A DNA stretch of 32,510 nucleotides from an uncultured Bacteroidota bacterium. Lineage in GTDB: Bacteria > Bacteroidota > Bacteroidia > Bacteroidales > WCHB1-69. A model generated the notes under the pieces. The model ran no database searches, was not told the origin of the DNA, and saw only the letters and a list, made by a program, of their open reading frames with translations. The stretch spans positions 1-32,510 of the forward strand of contig CACYHL010000007.1 of the NCBI GenBank assembly GCA_902774205.1. Direction: 5' to 3'. Position numbers and translations under genes: made by a program. Of this stretch, positions 7,772 through 28,063 are shown piece by piece. Position 1 is the first letter of the stretch; each line of letters begins with the position of its first letter.

Positions 7772-8497
7772 ATGGGTCAGAAAGTTAATCCGGTAGGTTT
7801 AAGATTAGGAATTATCAGAGGCTGGGATTCTAATTGGTTTGGCGGCAAACAATTCGCCAATAAGATCGTCGAGGACGACAAAATCAGAAGATACCTGAAC
7901 GCTCGTTTGTTCAAGGCCGGTATCGCAAAAATATACATTGAGAGAACCCTCAAGTTAGTCACCGTCACCATTAACACCGCACGTCCGGGTCTTATCATCG
8001 GCAAAGGCGGCGCAGAGGTTGACAAGCTGAAAGAAGAGCTCAAGAAAATCACCAACAAAGAGATACAGATCAACATCTCAGAGGTCAAACGTCCGGATTT
8101 AGACGCTGTACTTATCGCACAGAACATCGCGAAGCAGATAGAAGGCAGAATCTCTTACAGAAAAGCGATTAAGACTGCTATCGCCTCAACAATGCGCGCA
8201 AACGCAGAGGGTATCAAGATATCCATCTCAGGCCGTCTCGGCGGAGCTGAAATGGCACGTACCGAACACTTCAAGGAAGGCAGAACTCCGCTTCACACGC
8301 TGAGAGCTGACATCGAGTACGCAAAAGACACCGCCCATACAACCTACGGCTGCATCGGTCTTAAGGTATGGGTCTGCAAGGGAATCGTTTACGGGAAGAG
8401 AGACCTGTTCGCCGTTAACGAAGGCGGCAAGGAGCAGAAGAGCGCTATGAGACGCACCGCACGCCCCAACGACAGACGCAGAACAGAAAAAAGATAA
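7772..8497 (+). CDS. rpsC: 30S ribosomal protein S3
   Basis: S3 sits at the mRNA entry channel of the small subunit. The 241 residues begin with the typical [13 protein letters not shown]. The KH RNA-binding loop GLIIGKGG lies at about 73-80, and the C-terminal domain includes [18 protein letters not shown]. The basic, low-complexity C-terminus ([17 protein letters not shown]) is ordinary for Bacteroidota. Second gene of the operon. Confidence 0.98.
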
Positions 8498-24664: not shown

Positions 24665-25159
24665 CTACAACAACTGCATTGCGATATGTGCGCAGGCTTC
24701 GGCGTCGGCGAGGGCGTGGTGGTGATTTTCCAAATTGAAACCGCACGCCGCCGCTACCGTGTGCAATTGATGGTTTGGTAATTTCTGTCCGAAATGTTGG
24801 CGTGAGGCACGACAGGTGCAGCGGAACTTATAATTGGGATAATTCATCTGGTAGGTTTGGAAAACGGCTTTAAGACATCCCTCGTCAAAGGGGCTGTTGT
24901 GTGCCACTAACGGAAGACCGGCAATCAGCGGTTCTATCTGCCGCCACACGGTCGGGAAGGTGGGAGCGTTGTCGGTGTCTTCCGGACCCAGACCGTGCAC
25001 TTGCTGACAGAACCACGCGTAGTAGTCGGGCACCGGATGGATGAGGCTATAGAAAGTGTCGGTGATGAGGCCGTCGCGCACCACCACTACGCCGACGCTG
25101 CACACGCTGCTGCGCTGCCCGTTGGCGGTCTCAAAATCAATTGCAGCAAAATCTTTCAT
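24665..25159 (-). CDS. DEDDh 3'-5' exonuclease, DnaQ/epsilon-like
   Basis: Removes nucleotides from 3' ends of DNA or RNA. At 164 residues it is a stand-alone exonuclease domain without polymerase or UvrC parts. The catalytic residues are visible: D8 and E10 in AIDFETANG, D92 in AHNSPFDEG, and H147 with D152 in HHALADAEA, giving the DEDDh class. It could act in mismatch or damage repair or as an oligoribonuclease-like enzyme; the sequence does not decide. It ends 36 bases from the convergent flavoprotein gene. It has its own promoter. Confidence 0.93.
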   Translation of the reverse strand: MKDFAAIDFETANGQRSSVCSVGVVVVRDGLITDTFYSLIHPVPDYYAWFCQQVHGLGPEDTDNAPTFPTVWRQIEPLIAGLPLVAHNSPFDEGCLKAVFQTYQMNYPNYKFRCTCRASRQHFGQKLPNHQLHTVAAACGFNLENHHHALADAEACAHIAMQLL

Positions 25160-26632: not shown

Positions 26633-26716
26633 TTGGAAAAACGGACGAAATTACATATAAAAGTGTTGGAAAAGCGGATTTTTTTGTATTTTTGCCGTTG
26701 GAAAAACGGACAAATT
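26633..26716 (+). repeat. Three evenly spaced direct repeats in the AAA_14 promoter
   Basis: TTGGAAAAACGGAC at 26633-26646, TTGGAAAAGCGGAT at 26666-26679 and TTGGAAAAACGGAC at 26698-26711. Start-to-start spacings are 33 and 32 bases, about three helical turns. Copies one and three share further bases (AAATTA). Copy two contains the -33 TTG of the promoter and copy three ends just before the ATG, so a bound protein would block transcription: a candidate autoregulatory operator. Confidence 0.75.
26666..26694 (+). promoter_or_regulatory. Promoter of the AAA_14 ATPase gene
   Basis: TTG at 26666-26668 and TATTTTTG at 26687-26694 with 18 bases between them is one of the best Bacteroidota promoters in the window. 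The ATG follows 22 bases after the -7 element. Confidence 0.7.
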
Positions 26717-28063
26717 ATGATTAACAGAAAGATTGACAGGTTTTTAGAGAAATATTACACTTCAACAAATAAAGCGTTGCTGATAACAGGTGCTCGGCAG
26801 ACAGGAAAGACGTATTCCATCCGCCATTTCGGCAGATCTTATTTTGAAAACATGGTGGAAATCAATTTCATTGAAATGAGCGAAGCGGTTTCTGTTCTTG
26901 CCGGTGCCAAAAATAGCCATGACCTGCTGCTGCGCATCTCTTCCCTTACCACCCAGCCGTTGATAGAGGGAAAAACGTTGATTTTTTTCGATGAGGTTCA
27001 AGAGTGTCCGGAGATGGTTACCGCCATCAAGTTCTTGGTTGAAGAAGGGAGTTACCGTTACATTATGAGTGGTTCTCTTTTGGGAGTTGAGCTGAAAGAT
27101 TTACGTTCAGAACCAGTTGGTTACATGGATGTTAAAGAAATGTTTCCTATGGATATGGAGGAGTTTTTTGAAGCTGCAGGGGTGAGTCAGAGGGTCATGG
27201 ATGAGCTCCATAATGCTTGGGAGCAGAAGCGTCTTGTAGATGCCTTTGTTCACACCAAGTTGATGGAATTGTTCCGATTGTATCTTATTGTGGGCGGGAT
27301 GCCGGCAGCTGTACAGAAGTATTTGGACACAAACAATCTCCAAGAGGTTCTGGCTGAGCAGCAGTCCATTATCCGTCTTTACAAGCGCGACATTGCCAAG
27401 TACGACAAAACCAACAAACTATATCTTGAGGAGATTTTCGGGCTGATTCCGTCAGAGCTCAATGCAAAAAACAAGCGTTTTGTTCTGAAAAATTTGAATG
27501 AGAATATTAAATTTTCACGATACGAGAACAGTTTCATTTGGCTGAAAGAAGCTGGTGTGGCCATACCCGTCTATAATGTGGAGGAGCCTGTCATCCCCTT
27601 GAAGTTGTCGCGCTCTCGTAATTTGTTTAAGCTCTTTCAGAACGATGTCGGACTATTGGCCAGTCAGTATGCTGATGGCATACAATTGAAGTTGCTCACC
27701 AATGCCAAAAGCATCAATTTCGGTTCCATTTATGAAAACGCCATCGCACAGGAATTGCACGCTCATGGGTTTGACCTCTACTATTTCAACAGTAAAAAAC
27801 AAGGGGAATTGGATTTCGTGATCGAAAAGAGCGGTAGCGTTCTACCCATAGAAGCGAAATCTGGGAAGGACTATCACCGGCACAATGCGCTGTCGAATGT
27901 GATGGGGAATGCCGACTACTTGATACCACAAGCATACGTATTTAGCAATGAGAACCTCAGGCAGGAGAATACGGTGGTGTATCTTCCTATCTATATGGCC
28001 ATGTTTTTGGAGCAACAGACCTCCATGGATGTCACTTACAAGGTGGATTTGTCGGGGCTGTAG
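26717..28063 (+). CDS. AAA_14 ATPase with C-terminal DUF4143 nuclease-like domain
   Basis: 448 residues from ATG 26717; the open frame extends upstream across the promoter, so the shorter start is chosen. Walker A is GARQTGKT (25-32), Walker B LIFFDEVQ (88-95), and a sensor-like YIMSGSLLG follows. The C-terminal part belongs to DUF4143 and shows PD-(D/E)XK nuclease-fold residues: D366 in GELDFVIE, then E379-A-K381 in PIEAKSGK. Such genes are abundant and often multi-copy in Bacteroidota, with suspected roles in DNA processing or defence but no settled function. Three phased repeats cover its promoter. Remnants of a second, divergent family member lie just downstream in the opposite orientation. 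Confidence 0.93.
   Translation: MINRKIDRFLEKYYTSTNKALLITGARQTGKTYSIRHFGRSYFENMVEINFIEMSEAVSVLAGAKNSHDLLLRISSLTTQPLIEGKTLIFFDEVQECPEMVTAIKFLVEEGSYRYIMSGSLLGVELKDLRSEPVGYMDVKEMFPMDMEEFFEAAGVSQRVMDELHNAWEQKRLVDAFVHTKLMELFRLYLIVGGMPAAVQKYLDTNNLQEVLAEQQSIIRLYKRDIAKYDKTNKLYLEEIFGLIPSELNAKNKRFVLKNLNENIKFSRYENSFIWLKEAGVAIPVYNVEEPVIPLKLSRSRNLFKLFQNDVGLLASQYADGIQLKLLTNAKSINFGSIYENAIAQELHAHGFDLYYFNSKKQGELDFVIEKSGSVLPIEAKSGKDYHRHNALSNVMGNADYLIPQAYVFSNENLRQENTVVYLPIYMAMFLEQQTSMDVTYKVDLSGL

Follow-up and report, generated by a model that had tools for sequence, protein, structure and literature searches.

The C-protein boxes of type II restriction-modification systems are autoregulatory sites that limit a nuclease, and they are read by a separate small helix-turn-helix (HTH) protein. 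MalT and other STAND regulators are ATPases that act on direct repeats at promoters; MalT has a separate C-terminal LuxR-type HTH for this and activates other genes. ORC/Cdc6 and the plasmid iteron initiators are ATPases that place a winged helix on phased repeats. We describe here an array of three direct repeats (iterons) at positions 26633-26711 of a 32,510-nucleotide stretch of DNA from an uncultured Bacteroidota bacterium (contig CACYHL010000007.1; hereafter the window), just upstream of a gene that encodes an AAA_14/DUF4143 ATPase-nuclease, P0001. As we read it, this array would also be an autoregulatory site that limits a nuclease, but, unlike the C-protein boxes and MalT, it would be read by the winged helix of the very protein whose gene it precedes. 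P0001 differs from ORC/Cdc6 and the iteron initiators in its fused nuclease domain, and no replication role is indicated for it. RptR, a repressor of an Escherichia coli defence island, is a separate 9-kDa protein with 9-bp repeats that have a palindromic core (PMC12255303); here, in contrast, the single ATPase-nuclease is likely to be the binder, and the repeats, which are not palindromic and have diversified from gene to gene, stand 32-34 bp apart.

The gene for P0001 had been assigned, from the letters of the window alone, to a widespread family with no known function. A role has in fact been proposed, although the defence role has candidate status: P0001 itself belongs to PDC-S01, a phage-defence candidate of PADLOC (PMC12988326). 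In the portions of that paper available to us, PDC-S01 ranks fourth in abundance among the defences of all prokaryotes, with counts of 29,494 systems in bacteria and 9,986 in archaea; validation is described as pending for most such candidate systems, and none is reported for PDC-S01 (PMC12988326). The available portions of the open-licence papers on PDC-S01/DUF4143 that we found by Pfam names, PADLOC names and words contain no description of a cognate array.

The array and its surroundings consist of the following features.

26633..26646, forward strand: iteron 1, TTGGAAAAACGGAC, an exact match whose position is kept in orthologues
26666..26679, forward strand: iteron 2, TTGGAAAAGCGGAT, an exact match 33 bp from iteron 1, which includes the -33 TTG
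26687..26694, forward strand: probable -7 box TATTTTTG between iterons 2 and 3, assigned from sequence by the Bacteroidota consensus TAnnTTTG
26698..26711, forward strand: iteron 3, TTGGAAAAACGGAC, an exact match 32 bp from iteron 2, with a 5-nt gap to the ATG

Exact copies of the motif TTGGAAAARCGGAY begin at 26633, 26666 and 26698, the three starts given in the sequence-only reading. None of 100 shuffled sequences contains even one exact copy of TTGGAAAARCGGAY (mean 0.00 against 3 in the window). Similarly, the direct-repeat score upstream of the gene is 23.4, compared to 12.4 ± 1.2 for shuffled sequence, and none of 40 shuffles reaches 23.4. No further exact copy is found elsewhere in the 2.43-Mb assembly; one-mismatch matches are as frequent there as those of a reversed-pattern control (8 each). 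When three mismatches are allowed, the motif count is not above chance (18 versus 13.6). What stands out is the phased set of three exact copies. The 33- and 32-bp spacings amount to 3.1 and 3.05 helical turns (10.5 bp each), and the claim that all copies lie on one face of the DNA is thus approximately right. The TTG at 26666-26668 and the box at 26687-26694 are consistent, by consensus, with a Bacteroidota promoter. The middle copy does supply the -33 TTG, as had been noted, but that it does so is incidental, because in some orthologues (e.g. L189) the -7 box occupies another array interval. The last copy had also been said to abut the start codon; it ends 5 nt before the ATG at 26717-26719.

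Arrays of this kind are found upstream of most relatives of the gene. Of 141 surveyed genes, 104 are preceded by repeats that outscore all of their shuffles (40 each); 70 of these 104 arrays have three copies, and 180 of the 183 intervals measure 33, 32 or 34 bp (136, 30 and 14, respectively). The family pattern in most relatives is two or, usually, three copies 32-34 bp apart ahead of the start codon. Among 158 control genes, the best repeat has this spacing at a score of at least 15 in only six, and the two strongest of these flank an AAA_14 gene. We found scores of at least 18 for 66 of 80 named relatives with 39-81% identity, with a spacing of 32-33 bp or its double in 64 of the 66, and an array in 27 of 28 additional genes that were subsequently sampled from the order. 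The same motif, which had been expected upstream of homologues, is present in orthologues of 58-85% identity; more distant relatives mostly have three-copy arrays with 32-34-bp spacing and diverged sequence. When the closest arrays are aligned, the iterons are conserved, while neither the spacers, which cannot be aligned, nor the flanks are. In the flanks of 53 relatives, 113 matches to a gene's own core lie near the gene and three lie far from it. Many of the 17 DUF4143 matches in the source genome are preceded by direct repeats of their own, which differ from one another.

Array-bearing genes occur in eight bacterial phyla and two archaeal assemblies, including members of Bacillota (Clostridia), Actinomycetota (Bifidobacterium), Verrucomicrobiota (Akkermansia), Fibrobacterota (Fibrobacter), Kiritimatiellota and Desulfovibrio. 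A Glaesserella plasmid copy also has an array; a Fusobacterium copy has none. Many relatives come from metagenome bins, and single host labels need care. Since the arrays span phyla and a plasmid, no single host regulator is likely to account for them. A wider regulon was rejected as a candidate, as all nine array matches below 1e-18 precede P0001 orthologues.

The gene and its domains are as follows.

26717..28063, forward strand: PDC-S01 gene for an AAA_14/DUF4143 STAND-like ATPase-nuclease of 448 aa (Pfam AAA_14 3.1e-26, DUF4143 5.9e-29; PADLOC PDC-S01 1.7e-199)
26768..27166, forward strand: AAA_14 ATPase domain, aa 18-150, with Walker A GARQTGKT and Walker B FFDEVQ
27416..27580, forward strand: winged-helix region, aa 234-288, inside DUF4143, from the AlphaFold2 model and covariation with the repeat
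27668..28060, forward strand: PD-(D/E)XK nuclease domain, with E340 and E379-x-K381 invariant and E364 and D366 nearly invariant

AAA_14 and DUF4143 follow one another with scores of 92.3 and 101.3 bits, above the Pfam cut-offs of 27 and 28.1, and the PADLOC profile spans residues 1-446, a match to the whole protein. Both the ATPase and the nuclease activity are probably kept, because the Walker residues (G25, R27, G30, K31, D92 and E93 are invariant in the AAA_14 domain) and the nuclease residues are invariant or nearly so. The AlphaFold2 model (pLDDT 88.6 overall) has the arrangement of nucleotide-binding domain, helical domain and winged helix found in CED-4, NLR and archaeal STAND structures. 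Its fold matches include the archaeal STAND ATPases 2qen and 2fna, CED-4, plant NLRs and Avs5 (VIA-align Z 16.3 for 2qen, 15.6 for 2fna and 14.5 for CED-4, over model residues 1-319 to 1-383) as well as ORC/Cdc6 in its DNA-bound form, MuB, TnsC and 8bob, the last of which we take to be a MalT-type STAND regulator. A conserved GGMP at residues 193-196 is reminiscent of the STAND GxP motif. The C-terminal part modelled alone matches PD-(D/E)XK nucleases in the PDB, namely McrC, Hjc, DdmD and Can2 (Foldseek E 9e-4 to 0.03).

Repeat and protein change together. Repeats differ between paralogues and match between orthologues: repeat identity is ∼91% at protein identities above 70% and ∼57% below 40%, and the distances are correlated (Mantel r 0.31, with a permutation maximum of 0.11). 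With correction for overall distance, no other of the ∼390 alignment columns is as strongly associated with iteron bases 9-13 as residue 265 (r 0.43; the runner-up has 0.21). This residue also ranks first both in the P0001 clade (294 columns) and in the disjoint remainder; the iteron calls behind these values are a profile-guided fit. In the model, residue 265 (codon 27509-27511) caps the predicted recognition helix, aa 266-279. Lysine at this position goes with G at base 12 (ACGGA, GTGGA) and arginine with T (GTGTA). Out of sample, the rule held in 19 of 21 genes, 11 of 12 with K265 and 8 of 9 with R265. We noted suggestive covariation for residues 267 and 236 in the P0001 clade only; S267 tends toward GGAC and D or E267 toward GGCA or GGAA. 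The coupling of K/R265 to the base is strong but not final. Because the tip of the recognition helix covaries with the repeat, the ATPase is the likely binder, and its winged helix would be the part that contacts the array.

We therefore consider it likely that the array is a self-recognised operator for autoregulation of the gene it precedes. The sequence-only reading had suggested an operator to which the ATPase itself might bind, and the arrays across the family, their overlap with the promoter in Bacteroidota and the winged-helix covariation all support this proposal. In Bacteroidota, the promoter, placed by consensus, lies in or beside the array: in 97 array regions with a -7 box, the box is inside the array in 51, downstream in 37 and upstream in nine, usually within 40 bp of it (these are mostly arrays of the window's own family). 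In the mechanism we envisage, the winged-helix domain of the gene's own product would read the three iterons, and about three protomers, one per iteron and thus some three helical turns apart, would form an assembly on the promoter that keeps transcription low. A potentially dangerous nuclease would in this way stay scarce and perhaps be parked inactive on the DNA. Upon infection, titration or a change of nucleotide state might release the protein. We infer repression rather than activation, ATP-dependent assembly and cooperativity; nuclease activity and any defence role of P0001 are likewise presumed.

Several observations weigh against this reading. The position of the array relative to the promoter varies: in some genes it is upstream, whereas in others it falls in the 5' untranslated region (5' UTR), and a simple blocking repressor therefore suits certain genes better than the rest. 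No clear array precedes about one in four of the surveyed genes, and the iteron alignment came partly from a motif profile, which biases weak cases. In phylogenetically strict independent pairs, five are concordant and none discordant (P = 0.0625), which is only suggestive. The model is weak (pLDDT about 60, aa 250-269) directly before the recognition helix, and STAND winged helices often touch nucleotide or neighbouring protomers, not DNA.

An operator read by P0001 would give each member of a widespread, unvalidated candidate family its own DNA site and turn the family into a testable system. With the array known, a ligand is at hand that can serve in purification, in gel-shift and nucleotide-dependence assays and in structure determination, and the arrays predict which paralogues cross-regulate. 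The covariation also suggests that a STAND-type winged helix may read specific DNA sequences by a code that can evolve.

By analogy with MuB/TnsC-type ATPases and TnsA-type nucleases, the array might instead be a mobility end that the ATPase-nuclease uses to move the array and its open reading frame (ORF), with autoregulation secondary. We regard this as unlikely. Movement as a unit is plausible in itself, because the boundaries of the unit recur and arrays with gene remnants exist. Array and ORF recur together in unrelated neighbourhoods, and where the neighbours of two copies differ, the similar stretch often begins at the first iteron and ends with the stop codon; this is so even for a pair with an ORF identity of 97.5% (L080/L088, -104 to +1). 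The matches to MuB and TnsC and the number of copies, 17 in this genome and others spread across phyla, also fit movement. However, recombination between units would yield the same boundaries, some pairs share flanks far past the unit, and no integrase or transposase domain was found. Past the stop codon we found no convincing copy of the array's own repeat or of an inverted repeat, and no target-site duplication was seen, although no systematic test for one was made. Arrays followed only by the start of an ATPase gene (L318, L320) look like leftovers of a lost gene. An orphan array was also noted in L324. Upstream of the gene in L083, the outer part of the array resembles the L080-type array, which suggests recombination between arrays of different paralogues. 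In L325 (G082), a second TTGGAAAAGTGTAA array, at about 1500-1634, lies ∼470 bp downstream of the PDC-S01 gene and precedes ORFs at 1634-2302 and from 2346 onward that by eye are GIY-YIG-like and HsdR-like; it could be either part of a wider regulon or a leftover array. A combined picture, in which self-contained mobile defence cassettes use the array both to silence the gene and as the assembly site for moving or amplifying the unit, with a modular residue-to-base code preventing cross-talk between paralogues, appears doubtful.

It is quite improbable that the array is an operator for a host transcription factor rather than for the ATPase. The overlap with the promoter would suit such a factor, and phased repeats are bound by many regulators, but paralogues within one genome carry different repeats, orthologues in different phyla carry the same repeat, and changes in the repeat track the winged helix of the protein itself. 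We give very little weight to a function in RNA or as another nucleic-acid signal, such as a 5' UTR element or a CRISPR-like array. Certain arrays are transcribed, as they follow the -7 box (L018, L021), but the transcript in the window would include iteron 3 alone, the array has no Rfam match, and its folding is not unusual (z = -0.12). Spacers are not conserved, the repeats are degenerate and usually number three, and no cas genes were seen nearby (none among the ten scanned window ORFs). Finally, chance or promoter low complexity, for which A/T-rich Bacteroidota promoters and the tandem repeats upstream of other genes might argue, is refuted by the shuffles (0 of 100 give the pattern), by the lack of a 32-34-bp period in controls and by the later-drawn genes.

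Other DUF4143 subfamilies appear to have arrays of different period, as judged from small numbers of genes. About six GPKWCGKT-type genes have 22-23-bp tandem arrays (L285, L299, L302, L017, L020, L180) and are found in Bacteroidota, Erysipelotrichaceae and archaeal assemblies; in two of the GxRRCGKS type (L022, L300), the array is a pair of palindromic copies at a distance of 40 bp. The 23-bp arrays made the 23-nt BrickBuilt repeats of Porphyromonas a lead, which was dropped because the paper on them never mentions the word ATPase. In L170, two unrelated genes, which end at 8405 and 14896, are preceded by 14-bp tandem repeats (AACACGAAGTAACC). We also rejected phage targets for the array, as the iteron matches on viral contigs are coding repeats (W-K-N-G-T) with a period of 30; contigs L269-L278 encode long GTWKNGTWENG-type repeat proteins, the codons of which mimic the iteron. 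The other scanned genes of the window are mostly housekeeping genes and do not make up a defence island. A DEDDh exonuclease-like gene at 24668-25159 on the reverse strand matches PADLOC PDC-S48 and DEDDh profiles.
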